Assembly (NCBI GenBank): GCA_017415775.1
Contig: JAFQFC010000022.1
Span: forward strand, 1-42,262
Length of the DNA stretch: 42,262 nt
DNA from: Oscillospiraceae bacterium
GTDB lineage: Bacteria; Bacillota; Clostridia; Oscillospirales; Oscillospiraceae
Direction: 5' to 3'
The translations under genes and the position numbers were made by a program. Of the stretch, positions 23,867 through 29,768 are shown one piece after another. The notes beneath the pieces were generated by a model. That model saw only the letters and a list, made by a program, of their open reading frames with translations. It was not told where the DNA came from and ran no database searches. Numbering within the stretch: the stretch's first letter is position 1; the number at the start of each line of letters is the position of its first letter.

Positions 23867-24337
23867 TCATTTTTTCTTTTTCTTCTGGATCACACGATCT
23901 GTTTCACGCAGCACATCCACCATGCGCCAGTCGATGACACGACGCATCCGGGCCTGCTTGTTCATCAGCCATGCCAGCAGAAAGCTGAGCACCGCCATCA
24001 GTCCGCCCATCACCAGCGTATTGGCCAGATCATAGTGCATGCTTCTGCCAAAAGCGCAGCCCAGCACAAAAGCGATGGGTACCATGATGTAGGCGCTGCG
24101 GGCGTACTTAGTGTCGTAACCCTTGGCCGGCTCCACCAGCACCAGGTCACCCCGGCGCACATCGTCATAGCATTCCGCCATGGCCCGGTCACAGTTTTTA
24201 TGCACATGGGGGCAGGGATTTTCGGGGCAGACGGCGCAGTTCAGGTCGCACTCCCAGTCGGCGGGTGCCAGCAGGATCTCGGCGTAGCCCTTGGTCATAA
24301 CCTTGTGGATCTTGGCAGGTCTTTGCTTCTTAGCCAT
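23867..24337 (-). CDS. RseC/MucC-like cysteine-rich membrane protein
   Basis: The 156-residue protein has an N-terminal cysteine-rich region (WECDLNCAVCPENPCPHVHKNC, given here as Cys-rich residues about 29-50), a short beta-like stretch (GDLVLVEPAKG) and two membrane helices (about 82-99 and 107-124), ending in a poly-lysine tail. This is the layout of RseC/MucC, which in proteobacteria affects sigma-E or, with Rnf-type electron transfer, keeps SoxR reduced; in Clostridia it often travels with rnf. No rnf gene is in the window. It has AAAGGAG before the ATG. It follows the AtoE gene after a 134-base gap with a large hairpin, so it may or may not share that transcript. Confidence 0.6.
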   Translation of the reverse strand: MAKKQRPAKIHKVMTKGYAEILLAPADWECDLNCAVCPENPCPHVHKNCDRAMAECYDDVRRGDLVLVEPAKGYDTKYARSAYIMVPIAFVLGCAFGRSMHYDLANTLVMGGLMAVLSFLLAWLMNKQARMRRVIDWRMVDVLRETDRVIQKKKKK

Positions 24338-24360
24338 GGTAAATTTGCTCCTTTCCGTGG

Positions 24361-24403
24361 ACCGAAAGGGAGGCCGGAGATCCGGCCTCCCCCTTGGTTC
24401 GGT
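24361..24403. repeat. Large GC-rich hairpin between AtoE and RseC-like genes
   Basis: An 11-bp perfect stem (24368-24378 with 24381-24391) is extended by ACCGAA/TTCGGT at 24361-24366 and 24398-24403. No T run follows on either strand. It could stabilise the 3' end of the upstream mRNA or pause transcription. Confidence 0.5.
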
Positions 24404-24471
24404 GCTGTTTCAAGAAGAGTGTTAGGAAGAGTATAAAACGTTTTTAATGTACGGTTCTCTCAGATGTTCGA

Positions 24472-25860
24472 TCAGATGAACATGGGGATGAAGTACAGAC
24501 CCAGGCAGGCGATCACGAACCAGAACATGCAGATGAAGGCCATGAAGCCCCAGACATCCTTCAGCTTCATGCCGACAACGGCCAGAGCGGGGATGACATA
24601 CAGAGGCTGCAGCAGGTTGGTGCACTCGTCGCCGTACACGAAAGCGTTCAGGCAGTTGGCCATGCTGGCGCCTTCGATGCGGTTGACGGCCTCGACGATC
24701 AGGGGACCCTGAACGGTGAACTGACCGCCCTGAGAAGGAACGAACAGGTTGACCAGGCAGGCGGAGATGAAGGTGAAGATGGGCAGGGTCTGAGCGTTAG
24801 CAACAGACACGATAGCCTCGACCAGGACGGAGCCCAGGCCGCCTTCCAGGTACATCATGCCCATGATAGCACCGTAGAAGGGGAACTGCAGCATAACGTC
24901 GGTAGCCAGGTGCATGCTGTCCTTGTGAGCCTCGATCCAGGAGTGGGGCTGGGGGAACAGGAAGCAGTTGATACCAACGAACATGAAGATCACCAGGTTC
25001 ATGTTCAGGCTGGGCAGGAAGCCCTTGGTCACGAAGGAGTAGATGATGTAGAAGAAGATCATAGCGCCAACCAGCCACATGATGGGCTTGCAGGTGTTCA
25101 TCTTCTCAGCGGGAGTGGTGGTCTTCTCACGGTTCTGATAGTCCTGAGGAATGGCATCGGCCTCGGTGGCGATGGCACCCAGCTCGACCAGCTCAGCATC
25201 GGAGGGCTGAGTGAACAGCACCAGCAGGATGAAGCAAACAGCCAGGACGGAGAACAGGATGATGTTCATGGGGTTGTAGCAGGTCTCAGCCACGGTCATG
25301 GTCTGACCAACGATGGTAGCATAGGAGCTGCCCTCAGTGGCCAGAGTGGAGTACAGGGTGGCGGAGGGGCCAAGGCACTGGCCCAGGATCATGCAGGAAT
25401 AGCCGCCGGCGACCATCATGGGGAAGTGCAGGCCCTTGACGCGCTTAGCCAGCTGCATGGCCAGGATGGGGGTAACGATGGTGCAGAAAGCCCAGTTCAG
25501 CATGGAGGAAACATAGCCGAACAGCATCAGGACGATCAGAGCAGCGGTACGGCTGTTGACCAGCTTGGCCAGACCGTTCAGCAGCTTAGCAACCTGAGGG
25601 GAACGGGCGCAGGTAGCACACACGATAACCATCAGACCCATCTGGAAAGCCAGAGTGAACTGGCTGGACAGGCCGTTCCACCAACCGTTCAGCAGCTCGA
25701 TAGGAGTCTTGCCGCACAGGATCAGGGACAGAACGATAACGATGATCATCAGGATGACGCAGAAAACAAAAGAATCGGGGATGATCTTCTCAGCGGCGAA
25801 GTTGAACTTCTTGCTGAGGTTCCACAGGGGAGTACCCTTGGTTCTTGCCTTAGTAGACAT
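24472..25860 (-). CDS. AtoE-family short-chain fatty acid permease
   Basis: The 462-residue integral membrane protein has about eleven or twelve helices and the family segment NLFVPSQGGQFTVQGPLIVEA near residue 385. AtoE homologues move short-chain carboxylates such as acetoacetate or butyrate with protons. The start at 25860 (MSTKARTKG) has AAAGGAA upstream; the longer frame reads into a non-conserved leader. It is the last member of the sigma-54 operon, 120 bases after the dehydrogenase, with a small hairpin in between and no promoter of its own seen. Its codon use is strongly biased and uniform (GTG, CTG, AAC, ATC), hinting at high expression. It likely brings in the acid substrate or exports acetoacetate or a product acid. 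Confidence 0.85.
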   Translation of the reverse strand: MSTKARTKGTPLWNLSKKFNFAAEKIIPDSFVFCVILMIIVIVLSLILCGKTPIELLNGWWNGLSSQFTLAFQMGLMVIVCATCARSPQVAKLLNGLAKLVNSRTAALIVLMLFGYVSSMLNWAFCTIVTPILAMQLAKRVKGLHFPMMVAGGYSCMILGQCLGPSATLYSTLATEGSSYATIVGQTMTVAETCYNPMNIILFSVLAVCFILLVLFTQPSDAELVELGAIATEADAIPQDYQNREKTTTPAEKMNTCKPIMWLVGAMIFFYIIYSFVTKGFLPSLNMNLVIFMFVGINCFLFPQPHSWIEAHKDSMHLATDVMLQFPFYGAIMGMMYLEGGLGSVLVEAIVSVANAQTLPIFTFISACLVNLFVPSQGGQFTVQGPLIVEAVNRIEGASMANCLNAFVYGDECTNLLQPLYVIPALAVVGMKLKDVWGFMAFICMFWFVIACLGLYFIPMFI

Positions 25861-25937
25861 AGAATTTTTCCTTTCTCTCTCGGTTTTGGTTGAGTTTTGA
25901 TTGCTCACTTCTTGAAACGCAGTAGGGTTCATGAAAA

Positions 25938-25953
25938 CTGAGGGGGTCCTCAG
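25938..25953 (-). terminator. Intercistronic hairpin with short U run inside the BKACE operon
   Basis: CTGAGG/CCTCAG (25938-25943 with 25948-25953) forms a 6-bp stem with a 4-base loop, followed on the minus strand by TTTT. It is too weak for a full terminator and may set the ratio of permease to enzymes. Confidence 0.45.
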
Positions 25954-25980
25954 AATTTCAACAAAAGGGGTTCAGATGAC

Positions 25981-26910
25981 TTACTTGCCGTAGACCATAC
26001 GGATCAGGTAGTCGTTCAGGTCGGCGCTGACCTTGGCGCTGGACTCGGGAGTCCACTTGTAGAAGCCTTCGCCGGACTTGAAGCCCATCTTGCCCTCTTC
26101 CAGCATCTGAGCCAGCAGAGGAGAAGGCTTGTGGCTGTCTTCCAGAGCGGGCAGCACGTAGTCGTGGATATTCCAGGTCAGCTGGGTGCTCACCAGGTCG
26201 CTGTTCTCCATGACGCCCAGCTGGGGCAGGCGCAGGCCGAAGGAATTCTTGATGGCGATATCCACGGTCTCGGCGTCGGCGATGCCGTGCTCGACGATGG
26301 AGATGGCCTCACGCCACAGGGCGTGCTGCAGACGGTTGGCGATGAAGCCGGGGACGTCCTTCTTGCACAGAACTGCCTTCTTGCCGGCAGAGCACAGCAC
26401 ATCGATGACGGTCTGGGCAACCTCGTCGGAGGAAGCGTCGGACTTGACCACCTCCACCAGGGGGATCAGGTGGCCGGGATTCCAGAAGTGGGTACCCACG
26501 AAACGCTCACGATACTTCAGATCGCGGCTGATCTCGCTGGGGCTCATCACGGAAGAGTTGGTGCAGAAAATGCAGTCGGGACGGCAGCGTGCTTCCAGCT
26601 TGGCAAAGGTCTCACGCTTGATCTGCATATCCTCGAACACGGCCTCAATGACCAGGTCGGCACGGGACACCAGCTCGCTGTCGATGTCGTTGGTGAATTC
26701 AATGCGGCTCAGGCGCTCTTCCAGCTCGGCCTCGGTGATGACGCCGCGCTCCACCAGCTGCTTGGTGCTGGTGCGGATGCCACCGAACACGTCGGTGGGG
26801 AACAGGTCATAGACGCTGACCTGATAGGCGGGGTTCTGGGTCATGACGAAGGCAATGTTCTTGCCCATCAGACCGCCGCCGCAGATCAGGATGTTCTTAA
26901 TATTGTTCAT
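25981..26910 (-). CDS. 3-hydroxyacyl-CoA dehydrogenase-family NAD-dependent dehydrogenase
   Basis: The 309-residue enzyme has a Rossmann domain with GGGLMG at 11-16, the segment TNSSVMSPSEIS, GTHFWNPGHLIPLVEVV (the family's catalytic HFxNP-like motif) and a helical C-terminal domain with DVPGFIANRLQHALWREA and GFKSGEGFYKW. This family includes 3-hydroxybutyryl-CoA dehydrogenase and also enzymes on free acids such as L-carnitine 3-dehydrogenase. The company of a BKACE, which needs a free 3-keto acid, favours a free 3-hydroxy acid substrate (inference). The start at 26910 is preferred over an ATG 9 bases earlier that overlaps the RBS TAGGAG. It follows the zinc-ribbon gene by 17 bases. Confidence 0.88.
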   Translation of the reverse strand: MNNIKNILICGGGLMGKNIAFVMTQNPAYQVSVYDLFPTDVFGGIRTSTKQLVERGVITEAELEERLSRIEFTNDIDSELVSRADLVIEAVFEDMQIKRETFAKLEARCRPDCIFCTNSSVMSPSEISRDLKYRERFVGTHFWNPGHLIPLVEVVKSDASSDEVAQTVIDVLCSAGKKAVLCKKDVPGFIANRLQHALWREAISIVEHGIADAETVDIAIKNSFGLRLPQLGVMENSDLVSTQLTWNIHDYVLPALEDSHKPSPLLAQMLEEGKMGFKSGEGFYKWTPESSAKVSADLNDYLIRMVYGK

Positions 26911-26927
26911 TGGTTCCATCTCCTAAA

Positions 26928-27122
26928 TTAATATTCGGCAGTGTCTTCGTAATCTTCCGCATCAGCGGGATAGCCTTCCTTGCTCTCCCCGATCAGCACG
27001 CCCTCAGCGTTGCAGACGGGACAGCGTCCGAAAGTCGGCTCGGTGATCATATCAGCGCCGGACTTAAACTTTTTGCCGCAGTCCGGGCAGTGATAGAACA
27101 TCCAGTAAATGCCCCAGGTCAT
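26928..27122 (-). CDS. Small zinc-ribbon protein in the BKACE operon
   Basis: The 64-residue protein has two CPxC knuckles, Cys12-Pro-Asp-Cys15 and Cys34-Pro-Val-Cys37, spaced like a zinc ribbon, and a very acidic C-terminal tail (DAEDYEDTAEY). There are no other domains. Its ATG overlaps the BKACE stop codon as TAATG, so it is translationally coupled to the enzyme and is unlikely to be a chance frame. It is not homologous to any enzyme I recognise; roles as a metal donor, an electron carrier (rubredoxin-like) or an assembly partner are guesses. The same compact pairing with a BKACE would be worth looking for elsewhere. Confidence 0.8.
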   Translation of the reverse strand: MTWGIYWMFYHCPDCGKKFKSGADMITEPTFGRCPVCNAEGVLIGESKEGYPADAEDYEDTAEY

Positions 27123-27964
27123 TACTTCTTCAGACCCAGGATCTCACGGGCCTCGTCGGGAGTGGCGACCTCACGGCCGAACTCACGGATGGCACGGGCA
27201 GCACGCTCGACGAACTGCACGTTGCTCTCAGCCAGCTGGCCCTTGGCGTACATGACGTTGTCCTCCATACCCACACGGATATGGCCGCCCATGGCGATGG
27301 CACCGTACATGATCTCCATAGCGCTGTGGCCCACGCCGAAGGTGCTCCAGGTGGAGCCGGGGCACAGCTGATCCATGGTCTCCTTCATGAACACCAGGTT
27401 CTTCATGCTGCCGGGGATACCGTTGGCGCAGCCCATGCAGAACTGGAAGTGCAGGGGAGCCTTCAGCACGCCCTTCTTCAGATAGTAGGCGGCGTTGGCG
27501 ATCATACCGGGGTCAAAGGCCTCGATCTCGGGCTTGACGCCCCACTCCTGCATGTTCTTGCCCAGTTCCTCCAGGAACTTGGGGTGGTTGATGAACAGAC
27601 CGCTGTGCAGCCAGTTCATGGAGCCGCAGTCGTAGGAACCCATTTCGGGACGCAGTTCCTTCAGGTGCATCTGACGGGTCTCGTCGGTGGCATTCAGGTC
27701 GCCGGAGGTGGTCAGGTTCAGGATGATGTCGCACTCGGGGTGGTTCTTGCGCAGCAGCTCCACAGTCTCACGGAACTTGTCAGCGCTCATGGTGCCGTTG
27801 CCGTTGTCATCACGCATATGCAGGTGAGCCACGGCGGCGCCGGCCTTCCAGCAGGCGTAGACGTCCTCGCTGATCTCAGCGGGGGTCATGGGGACGTTGG
27901 GGTTGTTCTCCTTCTTGGGCCATGCACCGGTGGTAGCCACGGTAATGATGGTCTTCTTGCTCAT
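27122..27964 (-). CDS. Beta-keto acid cleavage enzyme (BKACE, DUF849)
   Basis: BKACE enzymes are zinc-dependent and condense a beta-keto acid with acetyl-CoA, giving acetoacetate and a new acyl-CoA; Kce in lysine fermentation is the founding member. The 280-residue protein matches the family. Zinc ligands His47 and His49 (AHLHMRD) and Glu234 (GMEDN), the nearby Asp235 and Arg230 (GGHIRVG), and the end motif TPDEAREILGL are present. At the position of Kce Glu14, which contacts the substrate amine in that enzyme, this protein has Trp15 (TTGAWP), so 3-keto-5-aminohexanoate is probably not its substrate. RBS GAGGTG precedes the ATG. It is the first gene behind a sigma-54 promoter. Confidence 0.9.
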   Translation of the reverse strand: MSKKTIITVATTGAWPKKENNPNVPMTPAEISEDVYACWKAGAAVAHLHMRDDNGNGTMSADKFRETVELLRKNHPECDIILNLTTSGDLNATDETRQMHLKELRPEMGSYDCGSMNWLHSGLFINHPKFLEELGKNMQEWGVKPEIEAFDPGMIANAAYYLKKGVLKAPLHFQFCMGCANGIPGSMKNLVFMKETMDQLCPGSTWSTFGVGHSAMEIMYGAIAMGGHIRVGMEDNVMYAKGQLAESNVQFVERAARAIREFGREVATPDEAREILGLKK

Positions 27965-28046
27965 GGGAATGCACCTCTTTCGTATATTTAAAATATGTTT
28001 TCCTTCGTCTTTCGGCGCACACAGCGCCTACTAACTCAATTTTATA

Positions 28047-28061
28047 GCAATTTTTGTGCCA
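28047..28061 (-). promoter_or_regulatory. Sigma-54 (-24/-12) promoter of the BKACE operon
   Basis: On the minus strand TGGCAC (28061-28056), five bases, then TTGC (28050-28047) is an exact match to the TGGCAC-N5-TTGC consensus. It lies about 85 bases upstream of the BKACE start, and the adjacent gene encodes a sigma-54 activator. Confidence 0.88.
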
Positions 28062-28155
28062 AGTTTTCATCTGCCCTTTCAGGAAGCAGCGCTAACCCTT
28101 GCTATCACTGGAAAAAATTTTTTTCCGCCTCCTGTTTTTCCGCTCCTTTCTTCCG

Positions 28156-28197
28156 AAAAAAATCCGCAAACGGTGAAAAAAATCACCGCTTGCGGAT
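28156..28197 (-). terminator. Terminator of the sigma-54 activator gene (contains a GGTGA-TCACC motif)
   Basis: ATCCGCAA and CGGTGA (28162-28169, 28171-28176) pair with TCACCG and TTGCGGAT (28183-28188, 28190-28197) with one mismatch, followed on the minus strand by seven T. The inner part (28172-28187) also matches the 16-bp activator-site motif, so the DNA may serve twice. Confidence 0.8.
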
Positions 28198-28292
28198 GGT
28201 ACATATTTCCAATCACTCCAAAGGAGGTTTTTTTGTCAAAATCGGCCCTTATTCCTCAGATTTTACCACAATATTTTGTGCTTCATACAATT

Positions 28293-28308
28293 GGTGAAAA
28301 ATATCACC
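28293..28308. promoter_or_regulatory. Putative upstream activator site 1
   Basis: GGTGAAAAATATCACC is a 16-bp inverted repeat with perfect 5-bp arms, 240 bases upstream of the -24 element. It matches the related sites at 28314-28329, 28172-28187 and 29723-29738. Confidence 0.65.
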
Positions 28309-28313
28309 GTGTC

Positions 28314-28329
28314 GTGGAAATATTTCACC
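28314..28329. promoter_or_regulatory. Putative upstream activator site 2
   Basis: On the minus strand GGTGAAATATTTCCAC, six of eight pairs symmetric. Its centre is 21 bp from site 1, two helical turns, so two dimers could bind on the same face. It overlaps the last codons of the activator gene. Confidence 0.55.
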
Positions 28330-29704
28330 ACTCTTCCATGCTGTATCGCTTGCATTTTTTGACCAGCGTGGAGTGGTCTACGCCCAGGGCAGCGGCAGCA
28401 CGGCGCAGGGAGCCCTCCCGGGCGACAGTGGCCCGGATGATCTCCTGCTCAAAAACAGCCACCTGTTCTTTCAGCGTCGCCCGCTCTTCTCCCTCCTGCT
28501 GCAGCTGCATGCCGGCAGGGGCCAGGGCGCGATAGACCTGCGCACGGGTAATGGTGTCGCCCACGCTGGTGACCACCAGGCGCTCCACCAGGTTCTCCAG
28601 CTCCCGGATGTTGCCGGGCCAGGAATAACCCAGCAGCAAATCGATGCCGGCAGGGGCGATGGCGGTATTTTTGCCGTACTTTTTGTTGAATTCCGTGCAG
28701 AAAACGTCAGCCAGGCGAGGGATGTCCTCCCGCCGCTCCCGCAGCGGTTTCAGGTGCAGAGGCACCACATTGAGGCGGTAGTACAGATCCTCACGGAACG
28801 TTCCCTCCCGCACCGCCTGCCGCAGGTCCTTGTTGGTGGAGGCAATGATACGGATATCCAGCCGGATGGGGTTGCTGCCGCCGATCCGCCGCAGCTCCCG
28901 CTGCTGGATGACCCGCAGCAGCTTGGTCTGCAGGGCCATGGGCATATCGCCCACCTCATCGAGGAGGATCACGCCCGTGTTGGCCAGTTCAAAGAGGCCC
29001 GCCTTGCCGGCCTTCCGTGCACCGGTAAACGCACCGTCCTCATAGCCAAACAGCTCGCTTTCCAGCAATTCTGCCGGAATGGCGGCGCAGTTGACCTTGA
29101 TAAAGGGTTTGCCGGCCCGGGGGCTCTTTTCGTAGATCTCGTTGGCAGCCAGTTCCTTGCCGGTGCCGCTTTCGCCGGTGATCAGCACCGTCACGTCGGT
29201 GCCGGCCACAGTGTCGATCAGCTCGGCCACCATGCGCATCGCCTGACTTTCACGGGTAGCTCGGCGGTCACCCATCTGACGGCGGCGCAGATAGGCCAGT
29301 TCTTCCTCCGCCTTTTTGCGCTCTTCCGTCAGGCTCTGCAGCTCCTGCTCCATGGCTTTCAGTCCGGAAATGTCACGAGTGTTGGTCATGACCAGTTCGA
29401 TCTCGCCGTTATCGCCGAAGACGGGGATACCGGTCACCAGCACATCGATGTTTTTGCCGTGGATGTGGGCGATGTCGTTGACCTGACTGCGGCGCTGCAG
29501 CACACGTTCCGTGACGGAACCCTTGTACAGCTTGCCTTCCCGCTCGATGTCAGCGATGTTGCGTCCGATGACCTGCTCCGGCGTGATGCCGGTAACGCGG
29601 GTGTAGGCCTCATTGATAAAGATGATGGTTCCCTTACCGTCTGCCACGTGAATGGGGTCGTAGCAATGCTCGCACACCTTACGAAAATCCAGTTTCTGCT
29701 CCAT
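28325..29704 (-). CDS. PAS-AAA-Fis sigma-54-dependent transcriptional activator
   Basis: This is an enhancer-binding protein that opens sigma-54 promoters by ATP hydrolysis. The 459 residues have a PAS sensor (about 10-110), a coiled coil (about 115-142), an AAA+ domain with Walker A GESGTGKE (177-184), the sigma-54 contact loop GAFTGA (224-229), Walker B LLDE (247-250) and [16 protein letters not shown], and a Fis-type helix-turn-helix (about 432-455). The start at 29704 (MEQKLDFRK) has GGAGG ten bases upstream; a longer frame has no RBS. The PAS domain suggests it senses a small molecule directly. The sigma-54 promoter and motif copies next to it point to the BKACE operon as the target. Confidence 0.93.
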
Positions 29705-29722
29705 CCTCTCTGCGCCTCCCGT

Positions 29723-29738
29723 GGTGAATTTTTTCCCC
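29723..29738. promoter_or_regulatory. Possible operator in the leader of the activator gene
   Basis: GGTGAATTTTTTCCCC resembles the sites at 28293 and 28314 and lies between the -10 and the RBS of the activator gene, a position suited to autoregulation. Confidence 0.4.
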
Positions 29739-29768
29739 ATTATAGCACACACTGTCGTAAAAGCGCAA
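29739..29768 (-). promoter_or_regulatory. Promoter of the sigma-54 activator gene
   Basis: On the minus strand a perfect -10 TATAAT (29744-29739) is preceded, 18 bases away, by TTGCGC (29768-29763). Confidence 0.65.

Follow-up and report, generated by a model that had tools for sequence, protein, structure and literature searches.

A sigma-54-type operon in an Oscillospiraceae genome predicted to encode the lower half of anaerobic phloroglucinol degradation

The window analyzed here, the whole 42,262-nucleotide contig JAFQFC010000022.1 of the Oscillospiraceae bacterium assembly GCA_017415775.1, is contig C13 of a metagenome-assembled genome (MAG) that is 75.7% complete. Its minus strand carries a module composed of genes coding for a sigma-54 enhancer-binding activator, a BKACE, a zinc-ribbon protein, a 3HCDH-family dehydrogenase, an AtoE permease and an RseC-like protein. 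We propose that this module serves the lower half of anaerobic phloroglucinol breakdown, in which the dehydrogenase would act on (S)-3-hydroxy-5-oxohexanoate (HOH). The features, including putative upstream activator sequences (UAS), are as follows.

28325-29704/29752, minus strand: sigma-54 enhancer-binding activator with PAS, AAA+ (GAFTGA) and Fis-type HTH domains (Pfam PAS_9, Sigma54_activat, HTH_50)
28314-28329, minus strand: putative UAS1, a degenerate palindrome with two mismatches that overlaps the activator stop codon; UAS2 is 21 bp away, a spacing shared with relatives
28293-28308, minus strand: putative UAS2, exact GGTGA-N6-TCACC, conserved in type B (defined below)
28162-28197, minus strand: intrinsic terminator-like hairpin after the activator gene, with a 15-bp stem and a T-run, containing UAS3 (−27 kcal/mol, z −7.8)
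28172-28187, minus strand: putative UAS3, an exact palindrome inside the terminator stem
28046-28061, minus strand: sigma-54 promoter, exact match to TGGCAC-N5-TTGC, TGGCACAAAAATTGCT
27122-27964, minus strand: BKACE, predicted triacetate:acetoacetate-lyase (TAL) (PF05853, Trp15)
26928-27122, minus strand: TAL-associated zinc-ribbon protein of 64 aa, its start overlapping the TAL stop (TAATG)
25981-26919, minus strand: 3HCDH-family dehydrogenase, predicted HOH dehydrogenase (TfD) by family and residues
24472-25860, minus strand: AtoE / short-chain fatty acid transporter (SCFA_trans, PF02667)
23867-24337, minus strand: final cassette gene, for an RseC/MucC-like membrane protein (PF04246, 25.4 bits against a cut-off of 24.4)

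The operon unit most likely spans 23867-29752 and includes the RseC/MucC-like gene, which lies 134 bp beyond AtoE; an RseC-like gene, 28-38% identical, is also found downstream of AtoE in seven relatives (L003, L004, L008, L017, L019, L129 and L130). The activator starts at GTG 29752 or ATG 29704, the dehydrogenase has an alternative ATG at 26910 that is better positioned behind the ribosome site, and an open reading frame (ORF) extending to 25932 gives AtoE an alternative start. AtoE exceeds the PF02667 cut-off (278.6 versus 27 bits) and stays below that of the narrower TIGR00366 model (271 of 575.75). A small terminator-like hairpin in the gap between dehydrogenase and permease (25938-25953), of a kind for which chance matches are expected too, may tune permease expression. 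By sequence, the unit has the activator domains, the −24/−12 promoter and the upstream sites of a sigma-54 operon. Coordinates and Pfam matches thus confirm the first-pass annotation in describing co-oriented genes with coupled or short junctions, behind an exact promoter and beside a PAS-AAA-Fis activator, and the enzyme families agree with its prediction of a sigma-54-type operon that would oxidize a 3-hydroxy acid and cleave a 3-keto acid. Its gene list overlooked the RseC/MucC-like gene, and it left the acid unnamed, where relatives now point to HOH and triacetate derived from phloroglucinol.

A scan of GTDB genomes retrieved 350 BKACE relatives, of which the best 80 are covered by our locus comparisons; gene maps were obtained by tblastn, as long antisense ORFs over BKACE blurred ORF clustering. 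Three operon types were distinguished. Type A (48 loci) contains dihydrophloroglucinol cyclohydrolase (DPGC) in all 48, phloroglucinol reductase (PGR) in 40 and a dehydrogenase of the TfD family in 41, and matches the Clostridium scatologenes cluster as characterized in the available passages of its report (PMC10470551). Type B (16 loci) lacks these two upper-half genes, PGR and DPGC, by definition and has the window's activator or AtoE, promoter and palindromes playing no part in the assignment. Type C (3 loci) combines a symporter, a CoA-transferase, a thiolase and a BKACE. The remaining 13 loci fit none of the three types and were excluded from comparisons between A and B. The PGR query matches solved chain 5g4k, which we take to be the PGR of Clostridium sp. 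ATCC BAA-442, at 509 bits; we call the relatives' genes PGR and DPGC on the strength of this match, of gene order and of Trp20/Tyr22 of DPGC (in P0006).

An activator relative at least 57% identical to that of the window adjoins TAL in 13 of the 16 type-B loci. A zinc ribbon with the conserved pattern M-x-WG...C-x2-C...FG-x-C-x2-C stands beside TAL in at least 30 of 48 type-A, at least 12 of 16 type-B and at least 2 of 3 type-C loci, all lower bounds for so short a protein. In quick trees with SH-aLRT support only, types A and B are intermixed for both enzymes: well supported branches of the TfD tree force at least four changes of the type-B label, and the TAL tree forces one, its best topology requiring seven. 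On these trees the two operon types seem to draw on the same enzymes, by exchange or re-assembly, and this favors a common chemistry. Two observations on operon content stand apart from this comparison. Each of the three operon types has, along with TAL, a dedicated zinc-ribbon protein of 62-71 aa, and the stop and start codons often overlap. One type-B operon (L006:10001-13300) has, instead of AtoE, an MFS transporter that is 81% identical to the MFS transporter of phloroglucinol operons.

The window BKACE matches PF05853 at 361.9 bits (cut-off 24.8), and its His47, His49, Arg230 and Glu234 align to the zinc and catalytic residues of the lysine-fermentation enzyme KCE, at the positions where we assume these residues to lie. 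In the C. scatologenes phloroglucinol cluster, a BKACE is the TAL and a 3HCDH-type enzyme the TfD, and Glu14 of the lysine enzyme is replaced by Trp16 in CsTAL; our comparison with CsTAL and CsTfD was made through the diagnostic residues described in the available passages of that report (PMC10470551). The window BKACE likewise has a tryptophan, Trp15, at the KCE Glu14 position, as do all type-A (48/48), type-B (16/16) and type-C (3/3) copies. It is 82-90% identical to the TAL of the 48 type-A loci and has their majority residue at 16 of 16 compared positions, which, except for Glu14, were our own choice. As a side observation, two Flavonifractor loci (L029:8087-11759 and L052:3758-7426) carry three tandem BKACE genes behind a sigma-54-type activator, 54%, 85-86% and 36-37% identical to the window BKACE.

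The dehydrogenase tells a similar story. CsTfD is described as lacking Lys56 and Asn221 of 3-hydroxybutyryl-CoA dehydrogenase (HBD) while keeping its Ser, His and Asn (PMC10470551). The window enzyme has Val60 and Arg230 at the HBD Lys56 and Asn221 positions and retains Ser123, His144 and Asn195 at those of Ser117, His138 and Asn188. Arginine replaces Asn221 in all 15 type-B rows and in 41 of 43 type-A rows, and the lysine at HBD position 56 is lost in 15/15 and 39/43 rows, respectively. Loss of Lys56 and Asn221 with conservation of Ser, His and Asn makes a free acid, rather than a CoA ester, the likely substrate. Most type-A dehydrogenases (28 of 43 rows) are 72-80% identical to that of the window.

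The promoter is the window's sole exact −24/−12 match, with 0.09 expected. Because 8 of 100 shuffled sequences also contained an exact match, its weight comes from conservation: a −24/−12 box stands no more than 420 bp ahead of TAL both in the window and in 15 of 16 type-B loci, the exception (L008) being one base off, compared to 0/48 type-A, 0/3 type-C and 3/13 other loci. In type A, TAL mostly lies inside the operon, which makes this comparison uneven, and type-A operon heads were therefore scanned too; a box was found at one of the 48 heads (L050, which also has a 43% identical activator) and the palindrome at none, 35 of the 48 heads offering the full 450 bases. Conservation across type-B loci makes a chance promoter unlikely.

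All 16 type-B gaps between activator and TAL contain at least two palindromes with at most one mismatch, usually two at 21-22 bp from each other and a third nearer the promoter. At the same stringency the window has eight matches for 1.39 expected, including two exact ones in the activator-TAL region and five scattered. The exact palindrome with an A/T core occurs genome-wide only at this operon in each of the seven type-B genomes searched. In the window and in three folded relatives the third palindrome sits within a terminator-like hairpin (−23.6 to −30.6 kcal/mol), and the use of the palindrome as core of the activator's terminator-like stem raises a possible link between termination and activation. 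Besides these, a one-mismatch palindrome at the activator start (29723-29738), between GTG 29752 and ATG 29704, hints at possible self-regulation, and three loci (L003, L004 and L039) keep promoter and palindromes while an adjacent activator of at least 57% identity is missing.

We next consider where the upper half of the pathway resides. DPGC was sought in 27 genomes and PGR in 25. Six of the 16 type-B genomes (G001-G016) have PGR and DPGC at another locus (G001-G004, G013 and G015), and no TAL or TfD was found in the 18-20 kb around PGR-DPGC in any of these six, which leaves the type-B operon as the evident supplier of the lower half. An HxlR-type gene adjoins PGR-DPGC in 6/6 separate loci, and these six stretches have no A/T-core palindrome and two exact mixed-core matches. 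Given the HxlR gene and the absence of A/T-core palindromes, the two halves of the pathway appear to answer to different signals. In the other ten type-B genomes, whose completeness is mostly not known, no close copy of PGR or DPGC was found; some have distant cyclase-family matches, at most 40% identical in their main pieces. The window's own MAG, about a quarter of which is missing, gave no DPGC match and a best-scoring PGR match of 28% identity, so that a phloroglucinol gene cluster, defined by PGR and DPGC at one site with TAL and TfD, was not found in this assembly.

Among 300 genomes drawn from the family, 47 have DPGC (E <= 1e-100) and 42 have a BKACE at least 75% identical to that of the window; 33 of these 42 have DPGC. 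The nine others are the window's own genome, G100, G232, G264 and G313, with AtoE, and G082, G172, G216 and G229, without it. G313 is apparently the same assembly as G005 (Intestinimonas sp.), to judge from identical coordinates. AtoE (E <= 1e-100) occurs in six of the 300 genomes, five of them with copies at 78-100% identity and all five without DPGC; the sixth, G104, has DPGC and only 39-40% identical AtoE copies. A search of other Oscillospiraceae for the same gene order, which the first-pass annotation had called for, found the full type-B order in G100 and G232, both from the window's genus group and 99% complete, and neither has a close PGR or DPGC; nor does G264, which is 78% complete. 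Given the completeness of G100 and G232, the lower half does occur alone in some genomes, as far as sequence comparison can tell.

The kinship of TAL and TfD to enzymes of phloroglucinol operons and the agreement of the diagnostic residues lead us to consider it quite probable that the module, with a sigma-54 switch of its own, serves the lower half of anaerobic phloroglucinol breakdown and scavenges HOH where PGR and DPGC are not found. HOH, the most likely acid, would enter via AtoE and be oxidized by TfD with NAD(P)+ to triacetate (3,5-dioxohexanoate), which TAL would convert with acetyl-CoA to acetoacetate and acetoacetyl-CoA, feeding butyrate and acetate formation; this chemistry is modeled on characterized relatives. 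The activator would sense an intermediate, HOH or triacetate, bind the GGTGA-N6-TCACC sites suggested by conservation, and open the −24/−12 promoter of this operon alone. The module would in some species complete a pathway whose PGR, for ring reduction, and DPGC, for ring opening, sit at another locus, and in those where neither was found it would most likely scavenge HOH released by neighbors. The type-B genomes without close PGR or DPGC copies, the two 99%-complete genomes included, suggest uptake of HOH made by other bacteria. AtoE might alternatively export acetoacetate; AtoDA is present in none of the 16 type-B loci and in 8 of the 48 type-A loci.

Several observations weigh against this interpretation. 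The window BKACE does not reach the cut-off of the NCBIfam 3,5-dioxohexanoate model NF053538 (212.5 bits versus 430). Since two BKACEs within PGR-DPGC operons likewise fail this model (206.4 and 220.2 bits), it seems to cover another clade; the window BKACE is not counted as a member of the NF053538 family and is only predicted to work like TAL. BKACEs of type C, which has no TfD (L061, L065 and L071), are 81-83% identical to that of the window and also have the Trp, so that the substrate cannot be read from identity or from Trp alone. Among type-A dehydrogenases, 13 of 43 are only 48-59% identical to that of the window and two are distant (32-33%), Lys56 being retained in four of the 43 rows and Asn221 in two. 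Three of the 16 type-B loci have no adjacent close activator, L060 has no TfD and four have no zinc ribbon beside TAL. Two of the six genomes with a split pathway (G004 and G015) have a second BKACE, 80% identical, on another contig, and four of the 42 BKACE-bearing genomes (G082, G172, G216 and G229) have neither DPGC nor the type-B AtoE; G216 has PGR though no DPGC, and in the three others a BKACE 81-88% identical was seen and no DPGC, PGR or type-B AtoE. No CoA-transferase (PF01144) was found in the window's own, incomplete MAG. Finally, less Intestinimonas was reported under naringin treatments than in the control, a propionate ester raising it relative to naringin alone, in the available passages of PMC12193867.

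An ordinary split pathway, in which the window's species would have PGR and DPGC in the unassembled part of its genome and scavenge nothing, is a possibility that we take seriously without thinking it probable. The incompleteness of the MAG leaves room for it, and the four nearest TAL loci (L003-L006, 92-93% identical, among the best 80 of 350) belong to genomes that have PGR and DPGC elsewhere. It is countered by the negative searches for DPGC and PGR in the MAG itself, in ten of 16 type-B genomes of mostly unknown completeness, and in G100, G232 and G264, as well as by the window's TfD, which is nearest to that of L008, from a genome with neither PGR nor DPGC.

It is unlikely that an operon recruited from phloroglucinol genes now serves another free 3-hydroxy acid, such as carnitine, 3-hydroxybutyrate or branched acids. 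In favor of this, short-chain acids give the AtoE family its name, type-C operons place BKACEs of 81-83% identity with other partners, and CsTfD is slightly active on acetoacetate and 3-hydroxybutyrate; its activity on acetoacetate is, however, 0.02% of that on triacetate in the available passages (PMC10470551). The agreement of the window BKACE with the type-A majority at all 16 positions, mostly of our own choosing, also speaks against such a substrate. Carnitine, a candidate of the first-pass annotation, finds no support, and a carnitine route was rejected on scores far under the cut-offs (NF005716, 137.1 of 592; NF005471, 107.1 of 414).

That the window BKACE serves as KCE in lysine fermentation is very improbable: the NCBIfam KCE model is its best match and 2y7d its nearest solved sequence, but its score of 301.9 bits is under the KCE cut-off of 382, Trp15 replaces Glu14, and KamB, KamC and Kal, each scoring above its NCBIfam cut-off, are encoded on contig C16 of this assembly, together with a kce start that has the Glu and is truncated at the edge of the contig, with 186.2 bits across 115 of 267 positions. 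The lysine route was therefore rejected, as the first-pass annotation had anticipated. Its remark that kam and kce are absent holds for this stretch and not for the genome, and the lysine cluster without its own kce that it had imagined elsewhere does not apply, C16 having a kce start. Given this separate kamB-kamC-kal-kce set, the window BKACE is, on sequence grounds, a second paralog beside the kce of C16, a finding that warns against labeling such BKACEs as lysine enzymes.

The module also looks like a cassette. In G333, from the same genus, only 77 bp, free of the module, separate the matches to the flanking Mem_trans transporter and sdaB genes, and the missing segment includes the RseC-like gene. 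Full-length matches to the neighboring genes were found in one of 31 other genomes of the genus, namely G333, where a second, weaker copy occurs as well. This single empty site could reflect gain in the window's species or loss in G333. The GC content is 0.572 in the cassette, 0.592 in the window, and 0.603 and 0.632 in the flanks. The earlier description of the set as self-contained thus stands for the genetic cassette, on one empty site, and remains conjectural for substrate import.

Other loci seen along the way suggest further variants of the pathway. Type-C operons (L061, L065 and L071; also L098, L100, L101 and L095) contain an activator, a sodium-solute symporter, a CoA-transferase, a thiolase and a BKACE with Trp, and no TfD; a distant cyclase-family hydrolase, 28-33% identical to DPGC, accompanies them, with the zinc ribbon in two of three. 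A conceivable role of such an operon is the opening of a lactone, triacetic acid lactone being one example, to yield triacetate. At L092, L102, L103, L105, L109 and L110 (genomes G020, G015 and G004) there is a second DPGC-like gene, 38-39% identical over its longer piece. It adjoins a 43-44% identical TfD-like gene in G020 and G004, and in G004 and G015 the contig that carries it also has the 80% identical BKACE, at a distance of about 9 kb. This set resembles a paralogous pathway of ring opening.

The breakdown of flavonoids and tannins has phloroglucinol among its key intermediates (PMC10470551). We give roughly even odds to the broader proposal that a separately regulated cassette lets gut bacteria devoid of ring opening, Intestinimonas and others, live on HOH leaked by flavonoid degraders, with UAS3 doubling as terminator stem. 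Were the ring-opened acid all that the module handles, different species would share the pathway and the exchanged compound would have a name; if true, this would be a new cross-feeding link from dietary polyphenols to butyrate producers. Our interpretation bears on an open point of a study in which quercetin enriched Intestinimonas-related variants, in one or two libraries, and whose available passages state that use of quercetin breakdown products is unknown (PMC7710108). An alternative fate of HOH, to acetone and malonate semialdehyde, is given in part of a review (PMC13039779). The literature passages searched held no demonstration of HOH release by gut phloroglucinol degraders, and the matches listed (titles and abstract openings of open-licence literature) no description of the module or of the cross-feeding.

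Compared to known systems, the module shares with lysine-fermentation kce (2y7d) the BKACE family and the aligned zinc and catalytic residues, and differs by its Trp in place of Glu14, the absence of kam and kal partners and the separate kce in the genome. Carnitine operons combining BKACE with carnitine dehydrogenase exist, and the window follows the same dehydrogenase-plus-BKACE logic but fails the carnitine dehydrogenase models. The E. coli ato operon comprises the AtoC activator and the AtoE permease; sigma-54 control and an AtoE-family permease are common to both, whereas the window's activator has a PAS sensor and not a receiver domain, and type-B loci are without AtoDA (16/16). The closest likeness in enzyme families and diagnostic residues, those of TAL and TfD, is to the C. 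scatologenes phloroglucinol cluster as described in the available passages (PMC10470551), from which the window differs in having no adjacent PGR or DPGC, AtoE and not an MFS transporter, and an RseC-like gene. In addition, its sigma-54 activator stands where many relatives' phloroglucinol operons (28 of 48 type-A loci) have an HxlR gene.

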